Shown here: positions 14,897-61,974 of the stretch, in pieces
How the letters are laid out: each line of letters opens with the position of its first letter
How positions within the stretch are numbered: position 1 is the stretch's first letter
DNA from: Propioniciclava tarda
GTDB taxonomy: Bacteria > Actinomycetota > Actinomycetes > Propionibacteriales > Propionibacteriaceae
DNA: 64,000 nucleotides
Direction of reading: 5' to 3'
Assembly (NCBI RefSeq): GCF_900182665.1
Contig: NZ_FXTL01000001.1
Location: 1 to 64,000 of the forward strand
Notes under the pieces: model-generated
What the model saw: only the letters and a program-made list of their open reading frames with translations
What the model was told of the DNA's origin: nothing
The model's database searches: none
Program-made: the position numbers and the translations under genes

Positions 14897-15685
14897 TCAG
14901 GCCAGGGCGTCCAGCAGCTGCCGGGCCGCGGCGTCGGCGTCCGATCGCCTGCCGGCTAGGCAGACTGCGCCCCGAGCCAGCGCGCCGGACGCCAGCAGCA
15001 CCTCCCGTGGACGCGTCAGCGCCGCGACGGCGTTGTCGACCAGCGCCAAGGCGGCGCGTCCCGGATCGAGGGGGGTCAGGACGCCGTCGGCGTCCGGGTC
15101 GTAGGTGACGCTCGCGACCAGCGCGCAGAGCAGCGGGGCGTCCTGGACGCGGGCCCCCAGCTCGGACGCCGGCACGTTCCAGCGTCCGCCCTCGCCCCGG
15201 ATCGACAGCCGCCGCGGGTACGGGTGGATCAGGCCGCCGGCGTCCACGACGGCGTACTCGTCGGACAGGTAGCTGCAGCCGGCGCGCAGCAGCGCGCTGA
15301 CCAGCGTCGTCTTGCCGGCGAAGCTGCGGCCGGGCAGCAAGATCGCGCCGCGCGGCGTCCCGACGGCGCCCGCATGGAAGAAGACGGCGTCTGGGGAGTG
15401 CAGCGCCACGTACGAGGCGAGGTCCCGCTCGACGGCGTGCAGCAGACCGTCCCAGTGGGCGTGGCGTGCGCGTCCGTCGGGGCCGTCGAGGACGAACCGG
15501 CCATCGGCGTCGACCGGGCCATCGGCGCGCACTGTGACGCGGCGTCCTGGCTCATCATCGGTCGGCGTGGCGCCGGGCGGCAGGGTCGCCGCCAGGTTGG
15601 CCGCCGCGTCCGGGTGGACGCCGTCGTCCCAGGCGAGCTCGACCACGACCCCGAAGCTGCGCACCCGGAGGCGTCCGCCGCTCAT
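14897..15685 (-). CDS. HPr-kinase-like P-loop protein of a PqqD/NTase cluster
   Basis: This 262-residue protein carries Walker A GRSFAGKT (about residues 117-124), followed by SALLRAGCSYLSDEYAVVD, the arrangement of the HPr kinase C-terminal domain. Homologues without the HPr-binding part (HprK-related kinases) occur in peptide-modification loci beside PqqD-like and nucleotidyltransferase genes, as here. It may phosphorylate a peptide or carbohydrate of the cluster; this is inference. Its ATG overlaps the stop of the nucleotidyltransferase gene (ATGA at 15682-15685), so it is the last gene of the minus-strand operon and probably suffers polarity from the insert at 16848-18619. Confidence 0.75.
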   Translation of the reverse strand: MSGGRLRVRSFGVVVELAWDDGVHPDAAANLAATLPPGATPTDDEPGRRVTVRADGPVDADGRFVLDGPDGRARHAHWDGLLHAVERDLASYVALHSPDAVFFHAGAVGTPRGAILLPGRSFAGKTTLVSALLRAGCSYLSDEYAVVDAGGLIHPYPRRLSIRGEGGRWNVPASELGARVQDAPLLCALVASVTYDPDADGVLTPLDPGRAALALVDNAVAALTRPREVLLASGALARGAVCLAGRRSDADAAARQLLDALA

Positions 15686-16497
15686 CGAGCGCCGCCGCGT
15701 CGTCGATACCAGGCGCTGGAGCCGTCCATCAGCCGGCGGACGCGTCCGGCCTGCCAGCGCGCCCAGTTCTCACCCAGGCGGAGTTGCCGGCGCCCGCGCT
15801 CCGACCAGTGTGCCGACGAGGTGAGATAGCCGCGCAAGCCGCGCTCGGCGATGTCGTTCGGCGCCAGTTTCGGGCGTCCGAAAAGGGCGGCCAGCTCGGA
15901 CGCCCCCGCCTGGGTCAGCGCCCACGCGACCGTGGGCGCCACCTCGAGTTCGCGTGCCACGGACGCCGCCGCCCGCCACTGCGTCGTGTCGACCACCTCG
16001 ATCGCAGGGGCGAGGTCGTCCTTGGGGCGCTGGGTGGCGTCCTGGGTGGCGTGGATCGCCAGGTGGACCAGCCTGGCCGGCACGTCGAGCACCTCGACGG
16101 TGGCGTCCCCGAGCTTCAGCTCGTCGGCGTGCGCGAACAGCACCCGGCACGCCTGGCGCGGGCTGAGGCCGACGCGGGGCAGCGTCCGGTGCAGGTCGAC
16201 GGAGGCGCGGGTGGGGTGCGTCCAGTTCTCCGAGTGGATGCCGCGGGCGCGCGTGTAGCCGAGTCGACGCAGAAGCGCGCCGGCGGGGCGGCGTCCGGAC
16301 GGGGCGACCAGCACGTCGATGTCGGCCGACGACCGCTCGGGCAGCCGGAGCAGCGCCCGCGTGGCGGCTCCCTTGAGGAGCAGGGCACGGACGCCCACGG
16401 CTCGCAGGTCTGCCACCAGGGACGCCGCCGCCCGGTCGTTGCGGGCCACCAGGTGGCGGTCCAGGGCGACGCGGAGGGCGTCGGGCGGGACGGTCAC
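15682..16497 (-). CDS. Nucleotidyltransferase family protein (NTP_transf_5-like)
   Basis: The 271-residue product has the nucleotidyltransferase core: LLKGAATRALLRLPERSS followed by ADIDVLV, the DxD metal-binding pair, with basic residues beyond. This type is found in peptide-modification and capsule-like clusters with PqqD and HPr-kinase-like proteins. GTG 16497 overlaps the glycosyltransferase stop (GTGA), and its own stop overlaps the kinase start, so the three genes form one operon. The substrate is unknown; nucleotidylation of a protein, peptide or sugar is possible. Confidence 0.75.
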   Translation of the reverse strand: MTVPPDALRVALDRHLVARNDRAAASLVADLRAVGVRALLLKGAATRALLRLPERSSADIDVLVAPSGRRPAGALLRRLGYTRARGIHSENWTHPTRASVDLHRTLPRVGLSPRQACRVLFAHADELKLGDATVEVLDVPARLVHLAIHATQDATQRPKDDLAPAIEVVDTTQWRAAASVARELEVAPTVAWALTQAGASELAALFGRPKLAPNDIAERGLRGYLTSSAHWSERGRRQLRLGENWARWQAGRVRRLMDGSSAWYRRRGGAR

Positions 16498-16847
16498 GGC
16501 GTCCCGTCTCGGAAGCGCTCGGGCTCGGCGACCGCCGACGGATAGTGCAGGTGCGCCTCCTGGACGGCCACGTCCGGGGTGACCAGGAGTGCCGTCAGCC
16601 GGCCCGCCGCCGTCTCGTTCGCCAGCCACTGATCGATGGCGAGGTGGTCTGCAATCCAAGCCGCGGCGTCGGTCGGGTCGGCGGGTACGGCGTCCAGGAT
16701 GGCGTCGAACGCCCGCGCGTGGACGGCGAGCGCGTGCGTGGTGGTGGCGCCGGTCAGCCGGACGAGGTGGTCGGCGTCCGGCAGGGGCGTCCGGACGCCG
16801 CGATCGAGCGGGACCCCGAGGTAGCACAGGTCCCACTCGCTCGCGTA
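16494..16847 (-). pseudogene. 3' part of the two-domain glycosyltransferase, separated by the insert
   Basis: This frame encodes 116 residues starting (Y)ASEWDLCYLGVPLDRG and including TGATTTHALAVHARAFDAIL. That is the C-terminal part of a GT25-type domain, where a W-D-L-YLG strand follows the metal-binding EDD region and a Thr-His-Ala motif comes later. No start codon or ribosome site of its own is present. It is in frame with the 5' part at 18617-19840: joining the TAC codon at 16847-16845 with that at 18619-18617 gives one 524-codon gene. Its stop overlaps the nucleotidyltransferase start. Confidence 0.85.
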
Positions 16848-16866
16848 ACGCCATGCGCATGGCGTT
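16847..16866. repeat. 20-bp perfect palindrome at the left end of the insert
   Basis: AACGCCATGCGCATGGCGTT is its own reverse complement. It begins at the junction between the glycosyltransferase gene and the low-GC insert. No matching palindrome is seen at the right end. Confidence 0.8.
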
Positions 16867-16985
16867 GACCATAATGACACCCTTTGCAAGCGTTACAGCG
16901 GCAGTGCTATTGACTTCTTTTTGAGCATATGGTGTGTAATACGTAATGGTAATAGCCCTGTGGGGCAAAGGAGTGTTTGTATATT

Positions 16986-17780
16986 ATGAGAAAACCAAAT
17001 AGATTTGAAGCTATAGCCACTGGTCTAACGGCCGCTATGGCACTATCCTTAGGTGGATGCGCCACTCATGCCGCCGAGACCCCAAAGGCACCCATTACCG
17101 CTACCGCAACACCTGACAAGCCCGTCGATACACCTCAAAGCCATGCGGCCTATGATAAGTATAAAGCCCTGAGCTTAGCCGAGTTTGAAAAGCTTCCAAG
17201 GAGTGAACAACTGACCTTTACATATGAAGCAACCCGCACGGGCACATTTGCGGTACCTCCAACAAAGACGCTCGGTAGAGGGTTCAGTCAGTTGCCAGAG
17301 TATGACCTATTTGCAACATCTGATGAATCTACTTCAGACCAAAAAGTTTTAGACTCTCTCTGGGATGCCTTAAATGCCGCCCAGACAGCCGCAAATGATG
17401 ATATGTCACCAAACAACGAGCTTGGACAAAAGATACTCGCTTCATTATCTACAATGACAGACCGAAGTGAGGGCAACAACAGCTCACGACTTTACAACAC
17501 TCTTCAAGAAGTAACAGCTAACCGTTCATCATTAACATGGTTTAAGGAGTTTGTGACAGCTACGGGCCCTGGTGTAAATAAGCACGGCGTAGCAACGGTT
17601 GGCGACAAACAGCGGTCAGTCTCGTATCGCGACATACCTGCACGCATTGATTTTGCCGGCCCAGATAAAGGTACTGATACAACCGCAAGGCTTGTGCTAA
17701 TTGAGGCGAGCGACGGGCACAAAGCATATGTGTTAGATATATTAAGCGCAGGCCAATTACCAGACCTACCAGATAAATAA
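16986..17780 (+). CDS. Lipoprotein of unknown function within the foreign insert
   Basis: The protein of about 264 residues starts at ATG 16986. It has a lipoprotein signal (LTAAMALSLGGC, cysteine near residue 25), followed by a Thr/Pro-rich spacer and a mixed alpha/beta region. An AAAGGAG site at 16967-16973 lies 12 nt before this ATG; TTG 16977 is an alternative start. Residues such as Lys, Asn and Asp are far more frequent than in neighbouring proteins. No family was recognised. Expression in the high-GC host is uncertain. Confidence 0.65.
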   Translation: MRKPNRFEAIATGLTAAMALSLGGCATHAAETPKAPITATATPDKPVDTPQSHAAYDKYKALSLAEFEKLPRSEQLTFTYEATRTGTFAVPPTKTLGRGFSQLPEYDLFATSDESTSDQKVLDSLWDALNAAQTAANDDMSPNNELGQKILASLSTMTDRSEGNNSSRLYNTLQEVTANRSSLTWFKEFVTATGPGVNKHGVATVGDKQRSVSYRDIPARIDFAGPDKGTDTTARLVLIEASDGHKAYVLDILSAGQLPDLPDK

Positions 17781-17808
17781 AGCCCTAGAGATTTTTGCGC
17801 ATTACTGA

Positions 17809-17842
17809 TAAAATAACGCATGTAAGCATGTGCGCTATTTTA
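17809..17842 (+). terminator. Imperfect hairpin after the insert lipoprotein gene
   Basis: TAAAATAACGCATG and CATGTGCGCTATTTTA form an imperfect stem with loop TAAG. The T-rich descending arm makes it a plausible terminator of the lipoprotein gene; it also overlaps the start region of the next gene. Confidence 0.45.
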
Positions 17843-17844
17843 TT

Positions 17845-18619
17845 ATGAGAGTTAGGGCAACATCATTACTATCTTTATACTTGCTAAGCACAGTCTTGGC
17901 ATTATTCTCCTTTGCTCCGTCTGCACATGCCGCAGAAACCAGCTTTTGGTCGGGGATGTCATTTTACCAAAAAGAGGCGTACGCTAACAGAGTAATGGCT
18001 GAGCGAGCCTGCTTGACATACAACGTTAATAAAGAGATATTTGTAGCCGCCGACCGAAGTGTTAATGTTCGAGACCCTGGTTGGTGGCTGTTTAATGACG
18101 ATCATGCCGTTGGTGTTGGTTGGCAGACCAGCACTGCTGACAAGGGAACATTGAAGTGCTCTGGGTTGCTACGCTCTTCACTGTTAGCAGATACTGGCTA
18201 CGAGGGCAAAAATGGCCAACTCCTCATCGACCTGGGGTTTAAACAAGGTAACCCCCCTGGAGGCTCATATACCCTTAACCCAGACGGCGCCCCTGAAAGG
18301 GCGGCACTTGCTGGGGCATTTGACCAGATTATAAAAACAAAACAGGCCTAGCCCCACCAGACCTCTACAAATCTGCTGAGGTATCGTATACACGCTATTA
18401 CACCGCCTTTACGGCAGGATGCGGAGTACAACTTGATCCCTCCAAGGCAACCGACCCAGCTTACGCTGGATATCCAAAACTAAAAGGGTTTATCACGTCG
18501 GACGGTAAAGTAGTTGAGGCGGCGGTAACCAATGGTACTTCTGGTGGTGGCCTGCCATCATCGCCTGGCAAAATGAATTAATGTCGTTGAGGGCTATGAT
18601 GGCGACGTTATCCTTGGTA
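17845..18619 (+). pseudogene. Secreted protein gene in the insert, frameshifted and cut by the junction
   Basis: ATG 17845 begins a Sec signal peptide (SLYLLSTVLALFSFAPSAHA) and a secreted domain, stopping at TAG 18349-18351. Shifting frame within the A-rich stretch near 18330-18345 continues the protein for about 75 codons (LYKSAEVSYTRYYTAFTAGC onwards) to TAA 18579-18581. A second shift there reads NVVEGYDGDVILGTT up to the insert edge. The original gene was therefore longer and lost its 3' end at the junction. Both shifts are in AT-rich or homopolymer sequence and might be sequencing errors. No family was recognised. Confidence 0.6.
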
Positions 18620-19840
18620 CAACTCGGCCATCGCCGGCCGCAGGACGTCGAGGGTGTCCGAGGCGAACAGGACGTCGTCCTCGAGCACCAGGACTCTGGA
18701 CAGCCCCCGCCGCTTCGCTTCGGCGATCGCCGCCCGCCACGACAGGGCGCAGCCGACGTGGTGGTTGTCGGGGGTGGGGACGGCCGCCACCCGCTCGAGT
18801 CGCCACCCGACACCCAGGGCCTCCACGCGCGGGACCAGCCTCGCCCACCGCTGCGGGTCGGCGTCCAGGTTGATCGCCATGACGGCGTCGAAGCCCGCTA
18901 GCGGATGGGTGGGCGCGGCCGCGGCACGCTCGAAGAGCGCGTCGTCGGTGACGAAGGTGCGGAAGTGCTCGCGGCCCTCGGTGAGGTCCCAGCCAAGCTC
19001 GGCCCAGCCCAGCTCGTAGTTGCGGAGGAAGCTCTCCCACGTGTGCTCGTAGGGCACACCCCGGGGGCGGACGAAGCGGTGCCCCCAGGCAAGCGCGGGC
19101 AAGCCGACCGTGCGTCCGCCGGCGCGGCGCATCTTCTCGTGCAGGTAGCCCTCCTCGGCGCCGAAGCGCCGAAACAGCGAGTGGAAGCCTGGCCAGGCGT
19201 CCTTGCGGCAGGCGAACAGTCCGAGCCCCTGGGACGCCAGCTCGTACGGCTCTTCGCTGAAGTCGTCGGCGAGTCCGTTGTTGCCCCAGGAGCCGAACAT
19301 GCCGCTGCTCCAAGTGGGGTGGAGGTGTGTCGCGGCCACGGCGGTGAGTCGGTCGTCGAGCAACGGACCCTGGACGAGGTCGCGACACTCGGGACGGGCG
19401 TCGAAGTAGCGCAGCAGGGCCGCTAGCCCGCCCGGCCTGATCAGGACGTGGGAGTCGACGCAGCACACGATGTCGGCCTGGGCCTCCCGGAACACCAGGT
19501 CTCGGACTGAGGTGCCCTGGAAGGCGCGGAACGGCACGTAGCGCAGCCGCGGCCACATCGCCTCCAGGCCCTTCAGCGCCTGGGAGACCGGCCCGGTCGG
19601 GTGGTTGTCGATGATCACGAACGACAGGTCGTCGGCCACCTCGGGGTGATGCAGCAGGATCGAGGCGATCGTGAACCAGACCCCGTCGAAGTCGTCGAAG
19701 GTGGCCATACCGATGCAGAGCCGCGTGCTCGTCGCGAGCGGTGCGGTCGGGGACGGGATCGGTCCGGTCAGCTCCCGCCAGGCACGCAGCTGTTCCTTGC
19801 CGGCCGCCAAGCCGGCCGCGATGGCGGTGGGGCCGTGCAT
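18617..19840 (-). pseudogene. 5' part of two-domain glycosyltransferase (GT2-like + GT25-like), interrupted
   Basis: ATG 19840 begins a 408-codon segment. The first ~270 residues are a GT-A-type (family 2-like) glycosyltransferase with IGMATFDDFDGVWFTI, IIDNHPTG and CVDSHVLIRPGG (DxD-like). The second part is a GT25/LPS-type domain beginning AVMAINLDADPQRW and reaching the metal-binding VLVLEDDVLF. At 18617 the frame enters the insert, adds a Gly and stops at 18608. The missing GT25 end is at 16494-16847. The enzyme would transfer sugars in the cytoplasm, possibly to the Thr/Pro-rich neighbour encoded from 19991; that is inference. The truncated product lacks part of the GT25 domain. Confidence 0.85.
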
Positions 19841-19990
19841 AAGGACCAAGGCTAGGTGGGACGGCGAGTGCGATGCGCGGCCCCCTCGTCCCCTGTTTGG
19901 AGGACATGCGCCCCCACCCGCGACCACGTTGGAATGCAAGCTGGCCCATCGGGGGCCACCACCTAGGACCGCCTTCAACGGGGAGCAACC

Positions 19991-20500
19991 GTGATCAATC
20001 CCACCTGGTCGCAACGCCACGACGACCTCACCACCGACACCGTCGACGGCCAGCTCGTCGACTACGACCTGCGCACCAACCAGGTCCACTGCCTCGACAA
20101 CGTCGCCGCCAACGTCTGGGCCGCCTGCACCGGAGCCGACGCCGACCAGATCGCGCGCACCACCGGAGTCGGCCGCTCCGAGGTCGCCGCCCACCTCTCC
20201 GCCCTGGCCGAACGTCAGCTCATCACCACCGACGCCGCCGCCCTCGAGCGGCGCACCTTCCTGAAGGCCGCCGCCATCTCCGCCGCCGTCACCAGCGTCG
20301 GCATCTGGTCCATCGCCGCCCCGCTGCCCGCCGCCGCGGCCAGCGGCGCCACGGCCACCACGACCGCCACGCCCGCCACGACTGGTCCCGGCACCACGGC
20401 GCCGTCCACCACGGCGGCGCCGAGCACGAACACTCCCGCTGGCTGCGCAGCCGCCGGCGGCTACTGGAACGAGTTCATCGGCATGTGCGAGTTCCTCTGA
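19991..20500 (+). CDS. PqqD-like domain fused to Tat-type signal and Thr/Pro-rich tail with two cysteines
   Basis: This 169-residue protein begins at GTG 19991 with GGGGAG just upstream. Residues about 12-78 look like a PqqD/RRE-type winged helix (DYDLRTNQVHCLDNVAANVW). It continues into ERRTFLKAAAISAAVTSVG, a twin-arginine signal with its hydrophobic helix placed internally. An Ala cleavage region, a Thr/Ser/Pro-rich stretch of about 35 residues and a short tail with two cysteines (GCAAAGGYWNEFIGMCEFL) follow. Cleavage after the Tat helix would release a small Thr-rich, possibly disulphide-bonded peptide outside the cell. It is divergent from the glycosyltransferase operon, with a 150-bp shared upstream region. 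I infer it is the substrate of that operon. Confidence 0.7.
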   Translation: MINPTWSQRHDDLTTDTVDGQLVDYDLRTNQVHCLDNVAANVWAACTGADADQIARTTGVGRSEVAAHLSALAERQLITTDAAALERRTFLKAAAISAAVTSVGIWSIAAPLPAAAASGATATTTATPATTGPGTTAPSTTAAPSTNTPAGCAAAGGYWNEFIGMCEFL

Positions 20501-58929: not shown

Positions 58930-61900
58930 TCACTTTCCGGCCGGGGCGGCCAGCAGGTAGGCGTAGTTGGCTTCGAGCGCGGTCAGCACCGCGGCCATCT
59001 CGGCCGGGAGCTTCGGGTCGGACGCCCCCGAGATCGTCGTCTCCTCGCCGCCGGGCAGGCGGACCAGGTAGCCGCCGTCGTGGTTCGGCAAGAAGCCGAC
59101 GTTCGTGGACTCCTCGAAGTCCTCGTGCGTCCAGAAGGTCGTGATCTTGTCCTTGTAGGGCAGGCCGGCGTGCGGGCAGAACGTGCCGCAGTTGCCGCAC
59201 TCGTTGCACAGCCCGTCGATGTGGACGATCTGGAAGGGATCGCTGCCGAAGCCGGGCACCTTGACCGAGATGTTCGCCCGGTTGGGGCAGACCTCGGTGC
59301 AGATCTCGCAGATGTCCTGGCAGGTGAGGCAGCGGCCGCCCTCGTCCTTGCCGTGCAGCGGGTTGATGATCAGCGCACGGTTCGCGCGGATCGGCGCCAC
59401 CGGCTGGTGCACGGTCGGGTGCGGACGGTCGTAGTCGGCCTTGACCCCGACCTCGCGCATGATCGCGCGGGCCGCGACCTTGGCGTCCGCCACGGCCTGG
59501 ACGATCGTGGACGGGCCCTTGCGGCCGTCGCCGATGACGAAGACGCCCGGACGCGACGACTGGAAGTCGGCGTCCAACACGATGCGTCCGCGGTCGTCGA
59601 GGGCGATGCCGTTGCGCTCGTAGGGCTCGCGGATCACCGTGGCGCCGGTGGCGGCCACGACGGTCTCGGCCTCGAAGTCGACGAACTCGCCGGTGCCGAC
59701 CATGGCGCGGCGGCCGGAGGCGTCCCGACCCTCGAGGCGCATGACCTCGCAGTGCAGCACCTTGCCGTCGTAGGTGAGCGGCGCGACGAGCTGGATCATC
59801 TCCAGGCCCTCCTCGCGGACCGTGTTCACCTCTTCCTGCAGCGCCGGCATGTTGGCCTCGTTGCGGCGGTAGACGATGAAGGCCCGCTCGACGCCCGGGG
59901 TACGAGCGGCCGTCCGGACGCAGTCCATCGCGACGTCGCCGGCGCCGATGACGGCGACGGTCTTGCCGCACGGGAAGCCGCCCTCGTTGATCGACTGCCA
60001 GAGGAAGTCGAAGGCGTCCACCAGCAGTTCGCCGCCCTCGCGAACTGGCGTCGGGCACTTGCCCCAAGCGCCGGTCGCGACGATCACGTGCGAGTAAGTC
60101 TTCTGCAGTTCAGCAACGTCGAAGTTCGGATCGCAGTTGAAGTGGAACGTGATGCCCAGGTCCTCGGCGAGGCGGAAGTCGCGCATGATCTGCTCGGTCG
60201 AGATGCGGAACTTCGGGATGATGTAGTTGACGACGCCGTAGGGGCCGTCCAGCTTCTCGAAGACCTCGACGTCGACGCCGTTGCGGCGCAGGAAGATCGC
60301 CGCGCCGATGCCGGCCGGGCCGGCGCCGATGATCGCGACCTTCTTGTCGGTCACCAGGGCCGGGGCCACCTGAGCCTGGCTGAACTCGTCCTGGGCGTGA
60401 TCGGACGCCACCAGCTTCACCGACCGGATGTGGATCGACTGGTCGTAGTCGAGGCGCGTGCACTTCGGACGGCAGTCCTGGGCGCACAGCACCCCGTTGA
60501 TCGTTGGCGCCGTGTTGTCGAGCGCGATGACGTTGAACGCCTCGGCGTAGCGGCCCTGCGCGGTCAGCGTCAGGTACTCGGGGATCTGCTGCTCGATCGG
60601 GCAGCCGCCATGCTCACAGGGCGCCTTGAAGCAGTCGGTCAGCGGCAGGGCCGACGTGGTCTTCCGGCTCGGGAACTTCTCGCGGTAGCGCTTGTGGAAG
60701 ATCGGGTCGGCCATGAACCGGCCCACGAGCTCGCGCAAGGCGGCGAGGTCGATGGGGCCGGCGTCCGACATGACCTTGACGGCCTCGTCGGCGAGCTGCT
60801 GGAACCGCTGCGGTCCGCCCGGCTTGAGAACGGTCGTCGCCACCGTGATCGGCTGGATGCCCGTCTTGAGGATGTCGGCCACGGTCAGCGCGTCCACGCC
60901 GCCCGAGAACGAGATGGCCAGGTCGCCGTCGAAGGCGTCCGCGAGCTTGAGTGCCAGCGAGATCGTCAGCGGGAGCAGGGAGCGTCCGGACATGTACATC
61001 TCTTCGGACGGCAGTTCGCCGGCGGCCACCTTGATCGGGAAGGTGTTGGTCAGCTTGACGCCGAAGCGCAGGCCCTTCGCGGCGGCCTCGGCCTTGAGGC
61101 GCTTGAACATCGGGACGGCGTCCGCGAACTGCAGGTCGGCCTTGAAGTGGTGGTCGTCGAAGACCATGTAGTCGTAGCCGAGGGCGTCCAGGGTGCCGCG
61201 GGCGAACTCGTAGCCGAGCAGCGTCGGGTTGCACTTCACGAAGGTGTTAACGCCCTTGTTGTTGATCAGGTGCGAGGCGATCGACTCGATTTCGCCAGCG
61301 GGGCAGCCGTGCAGGGTCGACAGGGTGATCGAGTTGGAGATCTGCGTCGGGATCGCGGCCAGGTGCTCGGCGGTGAAGTGCTCGAACTCGCCCAGGTGCG
61401 CCTCGAGCCAGCCGTAGCACTCGGCCCACACGGGGGTCTGGGAGGCGTCCTTCAGGCCCTCGATGTAGTTGTCGATCTTCGGCAGCTTGATGCCCTCGAG
61501 GTCGTAGCCGACGCTCATGTTGAAGGCGACGTCGCCGACCTGGCCCAGGCCCAGCTCGACACCGAAGAACGCGCAGGCGAACCAGGCGCGGACGTACTCG
61601 TCGAAGGCCTGCTGAACCGTCAGCTCGGTGGACCACTCGCAGTTGTAGCCCTCGTCCTCCATCTGGATGCAGGGCTTGGGCACGCACGCCATCAGCTCGG
61701 CGCCGTCCATCTTCTGAACGGTCTTGAGCTCCATGAAGCGGGCGCCGGAGAGGTAGCAGACAAGGATGTTGTTCGACAGCTGCGTCGAGGGCCCAGCGGC
61801 GGGGCCGACCGGGTTGGCGACGGAGTCTCCGAAGCTGTCCTTGATCATCACGTCCGACGTGGGACGCCACATCTTCTCGACGTGGACGCCGAAGATCGCA

Positions 61901-61974
61901 TGATCGTGAGCGAGCTCGGTGCGCGCCCAGGACATGAGGTGATCGAAAGACAGGGGACGCATGATGTCGCTCAT
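58930..61974 (-). CDS. ygfK: YgfK: putative selenate reductase subunit, FAD/Fe-S oxidoreductase
   Basis: The 1014-residue protein has a DHOD/TIM-barrel-like N-terminal part (GGVDALTVADILKTGIQPIT). A cysteine-rich linker (CEHGGCPIEQQIP; CAQDCRPKCTRLDYDQSIH) and a GltD-like FAD/NAD(P) region with two Rossmann motifs (IIGAGPAGIGAAIFLRRNG; VAVIGAGDVAMDCVRTA) follow. It ends with 4Fe-4S motifs (CLTCQDICEICTEVCPN; CNECGNCGTFCPHAG). The layout resembles dihydropyrimidine dehydrogenase. In E. coli ygfK belongs to a cluster now linked to anaerobic purine/urate breakdown. It is the first gene of ygfK-ssnA and probably hyuA; ATG 61974. Confidence 0.9.
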   Translation of the reverse strand: MSDIMRPLSFDHLMSWARTELAHDHAIFGVHVEKMWRPTSDVMIKDSFGDSVANPVGPAAGPSTQLSNNILVCYLSGARFMELKTVQKMDGAELMACVPKPCIQMEDEGYNCEWSTELTVQQAFDEYVRAWFACAFFGVELGLGQVGDVAFNMSVGYDLEGIKLPKIDNYIEGLKDASQTPVWAECYGWLEAHLGEFEHFTAEHLAAIPTQISNSITLSTLHGCPAGEIESIASHLINNKGVNTFVKCNPTLLGYEFARGTLDALGYDYMVFDDHHFKADLQFADAVPMFKRLKAEAAAKGLRFGVKLTNTFPIKVAAGELPSEEMYMSGRSLLPLTISLALKLADAFDGDLAISFSGGVDALTVADILKTGIQPITVATTVLKPGGPQRFQQLADEAVKVMSDAGPIDLAALRELVGRFMADPIFHKRYREKFPSRKTTSALPLTDCFKAPCEHGGCPIEQQIPEYLTLTAQGRYAEAFNVIALDNTAPTINGVLCAQDCRPKCTRLDYDQSIHIRSVKLVASDHAQDEFSQAQVAPALVTDKKVAIIGAGPAGIGAAIFLRRNGVDVEVFEKLDGPYGVVNYIIPKFRISTEQIMRDFRLAEDLGITFHFNCDPNFDVAELQKTYSHVIVATGAWGKCPTPVREGGELLVDAFDFLWQSINEGGFPCGKTVAVIGAGDVAMDCVRTAARTPGVERAFIVYRRNEANMPALQEEVNTVREEGLEMIQLVAPLTYDGKVLHCEVMRLEGRDASGRRAMVGTGEFVDFEAETVVAATGATVIREPYERNGIALDDRGRIVLDADFQSSRPGVFVIGDGRKGPSTIVQAVADAKVAARAIMREVGVKADYDRPHPTVHQPVAPIRANRALIINPLHGKDEGGRCLTCQDICEICTEVCPNRANISVKVPGFGSDPFQIVHIDGLCNECGNCGTFCPHAGLPYKDKITTFWTHEDFEESTNVGFLPNHDGGYLVRLPGGEETTISGASDPKLPAEMAAVLTALEANYAYLLAAPAGK

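Follow-up and report, generated by a model that had tools for sequence, protein, structure and literature searches.

A low-GC DNA fragment, most likely of Saccharimonadia origin, lies within a glycosyltransferase gene of Propioniciclava tarda

An interrupted glycosyltransferase gene

We analyzed a 64,000-nucleotide stretch of Propioniciclava tarda DNA (contig NZ_FXTL01000001.1, positions 1 to 64,000), hereafter the window. On its minus strand, a glycosyltransferase gene was found in two parts: a 5' part with a family 2 glycosyltransferase (GT2) domain and the start of a GT25-like domain (18620-19840), and a 3' part (16494-16847). Between them lies a segment (16845-18619) that we interpret as inserted foreign DNA, on the grounds of its GC content, hexamers and dinucleotides and of the exact rejoining of the host gene around it. 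The insert measures 1772 bp plus a repeated GTA and may be taken as 16845-18616 or as 16848-18619, its position being ambiguous by 3 bp. The left edge reads ...ACTCGC-GTA-ACGCC..., the host lying on the left, and the right edge ...CCTTG-GTA-CAACTCGG..., with the GTA copies at 16845-16847 and 18617-18619. This direct reading agreed with an earlier interpretation made from the letters alone (the sequence-only reading), which had reported GTA at both edges. The insert is present as a single copy in the genome.

Taking out the 1772 bp gave CTCGC-GTA-CAACTCGG and a 524-codon minus-strand glycosyltransferase gene. The rejoined product matched the family 2 glycosyltransferase domain with 28.3 bits (cut-off 23.3), together with a sub-threshold match to GT25 (15.7 bits, cut-off 24). 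With tblastn, we retrieved relatives from Synechocystis plasmids, where they are annotated as GT25 proteins, and from uncultured-phage records, where they lack annotation; none was found among viral contigs. The gene was present in one of 39 genomes, its own, and in none of the 38 relatives. Thus, a search for an uninterrupted allele in related strains, as had been proposed, returned none, and no such allele from the genus could be compared.

In the same neighbourhood (14897-20500), the glycosyltransferase gene stands beside a P-loop (kinase-like) gene, an NTP_transf_5 nucleotidyltransferase gene (70.7 bits) and a small ORF without family match, whose PqqD-like label is our own reading. This region has the look of a cluster for the modification of peptides or glycans, presumably resembling HPr-kinase-related systems. 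Elsewhere in the window, we noted a complete gene for a YgfK-type putative selenate reductase subunit (58930-61974, 1214 bits).

Genes carried by the insert

Parts of three plus-strand genes were recognized in the insert. The left edge cuts a gene of which about 24 hydrophobic codons remain in translation (16850-16924, stop at 16922-16924) and for which no relative was identified. Then comes an intact gene for a putative 264-aa lipoprotein (16986-17780) with an LGGC lipobox and an alternative TTG start at 16977. It is followed by an intrinsic-terminator-like hairpin with a T-rich tail (17817-17834, plus strand), found by a terminator scan that gave six such sites against a shuffle mean of 1.7. 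The third gene starts with a signal-peptide-bearing segment (17845-18351) and continues in a shifted frame (18336-18581) up to its truncation by the right edge; both segments would belong to the N-terminal domain of a VirB6-like protein, as developed below.

The sequence-only reading had described a gene tail, a complete lipoprotein gene and a gene cut at the right edge. That inventory was upheld, with the correction that the third gene does not keep to one frame: a shift lies at about 18333-18345, beyond which the new frame continues to 18581. There may be a second shift near 18570-18581. The first one is real in this sequence since the profile match described below runs across it. It falls at A-runs in a gene for a surface domain and could reflect decay, a read error or a phase-variable tract of the donor. 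The multi-membrane C-terminal region of the third gene is absent, having been cut off at the insert's right edge, and the third gene is thus a fragment and not a working VirB6-like member.

Composition of the insert

GC content was 0.479 in the insert versus 0.698 in the remaining window. For a wider reference, we sampled 864 kb of host DNA, made up of the window plus 40 further 20-kb stretches of the 2.97-Mb genome, in which 600-bp GC averaged 0.694 (sd 0.033). The lowest 600-bp value in the insert, 0.438, was the minimum of the whole sample. Only two other stretches in the 864 kb fell below 0.57: L175:10400-11300, which overlaps a large ORF judged by eye to be DNA-methylase-like, and L187:100-2800, at a contig start. 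Pieces of small contigs outside this sample had GC values down to 0.507. A native low-GC island was therefore rejected, the insert being the GC minimum with two other stretches below 0.57 in 864 kb.

The dinucleotide distance between insert and host was 0.260, as compared with a mean of 0.066 and a maximum of 0.138 for 200 host pieces of equal length; between the insert and 11 Saccharimonadia loci, it was 0.067-0.150. A sharp composition shift and a foreign origin had been proposed, and both were borne out by GC content and dinucleotide signature. The sequence-only reading had also reported the absence of a host hexamer without naming it. We chose the commonest ones, GCGTCC/GGACGC and GGCGTC/GACGCC, whose expected counts in the insert were 13.6 and 12.8; neither occurred.

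Exactness of the joint

The in-frame restoration of the 524-codon gene had been put forward as an argument for the insertion. The gene is indeed rejoined exactly, but the frame argument had been given too much weight: when nearby breakpoints were joined arbitrarily in this high-GC frame, 3217 of 8000 joins likewise stayed open, so that frame restoration alone is weak evidence. Because of this, we checked exactness against relatives. The rejoined protein was aligned over the joint with four uninterrupted relatives, namely two from uncultured-phage records and two from Synechocystis plasmids. Three aligned ungapped with the same spacing and one was one residue shorter. The claim that the host gene is re-entered exactly holds on the strength of these four alignments.

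Origin of the third gene and of the insert

A long multi-membrane protein family, searched with L124 as query, was present in 227 of 244 genomes from the class of Ca. Saccharibacteria bacterium 47-87, which we take to be Saccharimonadia. Beside its genes lie those for a PrgI protein (50.8 bits) and a type IV secretion system (T4SS) pilin (58.7 bits). The long protein itself gave no VirB6 match in Pfam, and "VirB6-like" is therefore our own name, based on topology and neighbourhood. Across genomes (L160-L170, L236-L255, L260-L264), the N-terminal extracellular domain varies strongly and the membrane part is conserved; it is possible that the variable domain faces the host cell. Often, the VirB6-like gene has arrays of small pilin-like genes beside it.

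After 20 loci had been added, giving 52 N-termini in all, we built a 10-member profile, against which the insert protein scored 41.4 bits, the best of 2000 shuffles reaching 24.0. With the signal peptide removed, it scored 27.2 bits versus 8.2 for the best shuffle. It ranked above the 42 other family N-termini (best 29.3), and it beat the best shuffle in all 10 leave-one-out trials. These scores are to be read knowing that members were picked partly by eye for a common cysteine/WW/VG pattern, a choice that favours the result. An earlier 6-member profile gave the insert 17.3 bits; the best of 3000 shuffles reached 9.9, and 95 other ORFs at most 2.2. On leaving out L164 or L161, two of the six trials, the insert ranked no higher than the best shuffle. 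In pairwise comparisons, the third gene aligned with L166 at z 5.5 (2 of 2000 shuffles equal), and 59 of 2000 shuffles equalled its score with L240.

A profile including the insert protein matched in three of 29 Saccharimonadia genomes, two of the hits being family members (L258 and L259) and one not (L257). No match was obtained in 19 genomes of the host order apart from the insert's own, nor in 10 genomes from other phyla-level CPR groups. The specificity of this profile is unproven because three genomes with known members escaped it. When the first half of the third gene was used as query, 392 Saccharimonadia genomes yielded two matches, L122 and L123, the former being a chance match with two internal stops. 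A read-through query gave eight of 392 genomes at E <= 0.05, below the chance expectation: two of these (L123 and L124) matched within the family's N-terminal region, a third (L125) belongs to the family but was matched in another part of the protein, and we attributed the remaining five to chance. Taken one by one, the best of these single-sequence matches were not significant.

Searches for a close donor in three further families or genera gave 0 of 93 (E <= 0.01), 1 of 218 (E <= 0.01) and 0 of 17 (E <= 0.05). Pattern-based scans of genome and viral contigs with the third gene found no donor, PHROGs and NCBIfam searches gave no donor lead, and Rfam returned nothing for the window and two loci. 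The protein search that had been suggested for identifying the donor thus succeeded in part, with a Saccharimonadia-type profile match and no close donor genome.

The lipoprotein gene was considered by its position as well. In two of 16 neighbourhoods (L260 and L262), the VirB6-like gene is immediately preceded by a lipoprotein gene, which is the order seen in the insert; in several others, the gene at this place encodes a protein of 280-366 aa. Against a profile of these upstream genes, the insert lipoprotein did not score above shuffles. In a pairwise alignment with the L262 lipoprotein, a pair chosen after looking, 17 of 2000 shuffles equalled its score. Its relationship thus rests on position and one pairwise score. 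Among 392 Saccharimonadia genomes, its sole match was a solute-binding protein, rejected as a relative.

Collectively, these data indicate that the third gene most likely comes from a Saccharimonadia type IV secretion locus and encodes the N-terminal domain of its VirB6-like protein. A donor within Saccharimonadia or their near kin is very probable given the profile and pairwise scores, the common gene order and the dinucleotide signature. Another low-GC bacterium would fit with the lack of a close relative, the unplaced lipoprotein and the very divergent domain; against those same scores, gene order and signature, we judge it highly improbable. The sequence-only reading had proposed a lower-GC community member as donor, a view that our data support and sharpen to Saccharimonadia, most likely, and to a type IV secretion locus.

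How the insert may have arrived

Homology at the joints is no longer than a few bases, that is, the 3-bp GTA identity only. This pair may be a 3-bp duplication or microhomology, and the donor sequence would be required to tell which; a 3-bp match at an edge is nothing unusual. The left joint coincides with the outer end of a perfect 20-bp palindrome (16847-16866, AACGCCATGCGCATGGCGTT), which confirmed the palindrome first noticed there. It is the sole perfect one of that length within the window. Since such palindromes are rare, with three in 800 kb of host DNA and one in 155 kb of Saccharimonadia DNA, we estimate the chance of one ending no more than 3 bp from either joint at about 2 in 10,000. 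The position of the palindrome suggests that the end was processed as a hairpin, or that the donor DNA broke at a hairpin base.

The reading that we prefer, with a probability of roughly 0.6, is that the donor fragment was captured at a staggered double-strand break by end joining. A broken fragment of Saccharimonadia (Patescibacteria) DNA with part of a type IV secretion locus would have entered the high-GC actinobacterium and been joined into a double-strand break within the glycosyltransferase gene. Filling in of a break staggered by 3 nt would leave GTA twice, Ku-dependent end joining would seal it, and processing of the left end as a hairpin, or its cutting at a hairpin base, would account for the palindrome at the joint. 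The glycosyltransferase gene would thereby have been inactivated, and the captured genes would now be decaying, as the frame change and truncation suggest. The host encodes Ku (PF02735, 168.2 bits), which makes end joining possible; this is a capacity for end joining and not its action. Bacterial Ku/LigD end joining captures foreign DNA through blunt or short-overlap joints without homology. The insert resembles such captures in its joints without long homology and in the presence of Ku in the genome, and differs from them in being a natural 1.8-kb piece from another phylum.

The same edges could have been produced without Ku, if free DNA had been taken up and had recombined illegitimately at both ends, with GTA microhomology on one or both sides. 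GTA at both edges and the intact host sequence, of which nothing was lost, are in keeping with this route, but a single staggered cut is more likely than two loss-free microhomology joints at one host triplet, and we regard this route as quite unlikely.

Another possibility was that foreign reads had been joined into the host contig during assembly or library preparation. The assembly is metagenome-like and fragmented (40 contigs), the foreign DNA would come from a likely co-occurring epibiont, and no relative carries the interrupted gene. The strongest hint is the frame change at the A-run, which could be an uncorrected read error, although decay after capture is an ordinary alternative. Against an artefact, there are two independent joints, both of which return to the host gene without gain or loss of a codon, the single-copy insert sits in a contig of 411 kb, estimated contamination is 0.19%, and the other contig stretches sampled showed no comparable GC drop. 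An artefact appears unlikely.

The absence of a transposase and of inverted termini, as claimed earlier, was confirmed: no transposase gene was found among the insert ORFs or by family searches, and a search of 16700-18800 for terminal inverted repeats gave no pair joining both ends. A mobile element making 3-bp target duplications, whether IS-like or a passenger segment mobilised in trans, would explain the 3-bp direct repeat but hardly the lack of transposase and matching ends, the gene cut at each edge, the single genome copy and the absence of matches among 72,556 plasmid and 50,697 phage records, and is a most improbable source. A phage or plasmid segment was likewise rejected, with no plasmid or phage DNA match and nothing from PHROGs, and so was, by eye, an integron cassette, there being no attC-length site and no joint at GTT.

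Relation to known systems and meaning

Gene transfer between CPR and other bacteria is already known as a kind: in activated sludge, 84 events involving 43 CPR genomes and fragments of 518-5730 bp were reported from blastn between metagenome-assembled genomes (PMC10031880). As described there, direction and joints are unresolved for those events, whereas both joints here are resolved to the base inside one interrupted gene. In the Saccharimonadia T4SS locus as presented in PMC12102498, VirB6 homologues lie near virB4 and VirB2 pilin arrays. The Saccharimonadia loci that we compared are similar in that PrgI and pilin arrays lie next to the VirB6-like gene; the insert differs from them in holding the N-terminal part only, broken and in another organism.

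Among solved structures, a SecA protein of the insert-bearing genome was closest to 1nkt, the SecA1 of Mycobacterium tuberculosis (458.6 bits; next 384.1), which together with 69% GC suggests a host within Actinomycetota. The probable donor would be a tiny bacterium living on other bacterial cells. Saccharibacteria grow as epibionts on Actinobacteria (PMC10633639). It is conceivable, if unlikely, that Saccharimonadia attached to this actinobacterium passed it secretion-locus DNA, through lysis at the contact site or through a secretion channel, and that host end joining fixed a hairpin-processed end. The intact putative lipoprotein gene could be expressed by the host.

In the portion of the literature surveyed, earlier CPR transfer was inferred from shared genes, and we noticed no base-resolved insertion of epibiont DNA in a genome of host type, an absence that is itself unproven. 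If our reading is true, a base-resolved, apparently homology-free epibiont insertion, found in a phylum that probably includes hosts, would be a direct marker of contact between parasite and host. It would also be a natural record of bacteria sealing foreign DNA into breaks, and would offer a sequence test for the pairing of epibionts and hosts in metagenomes.
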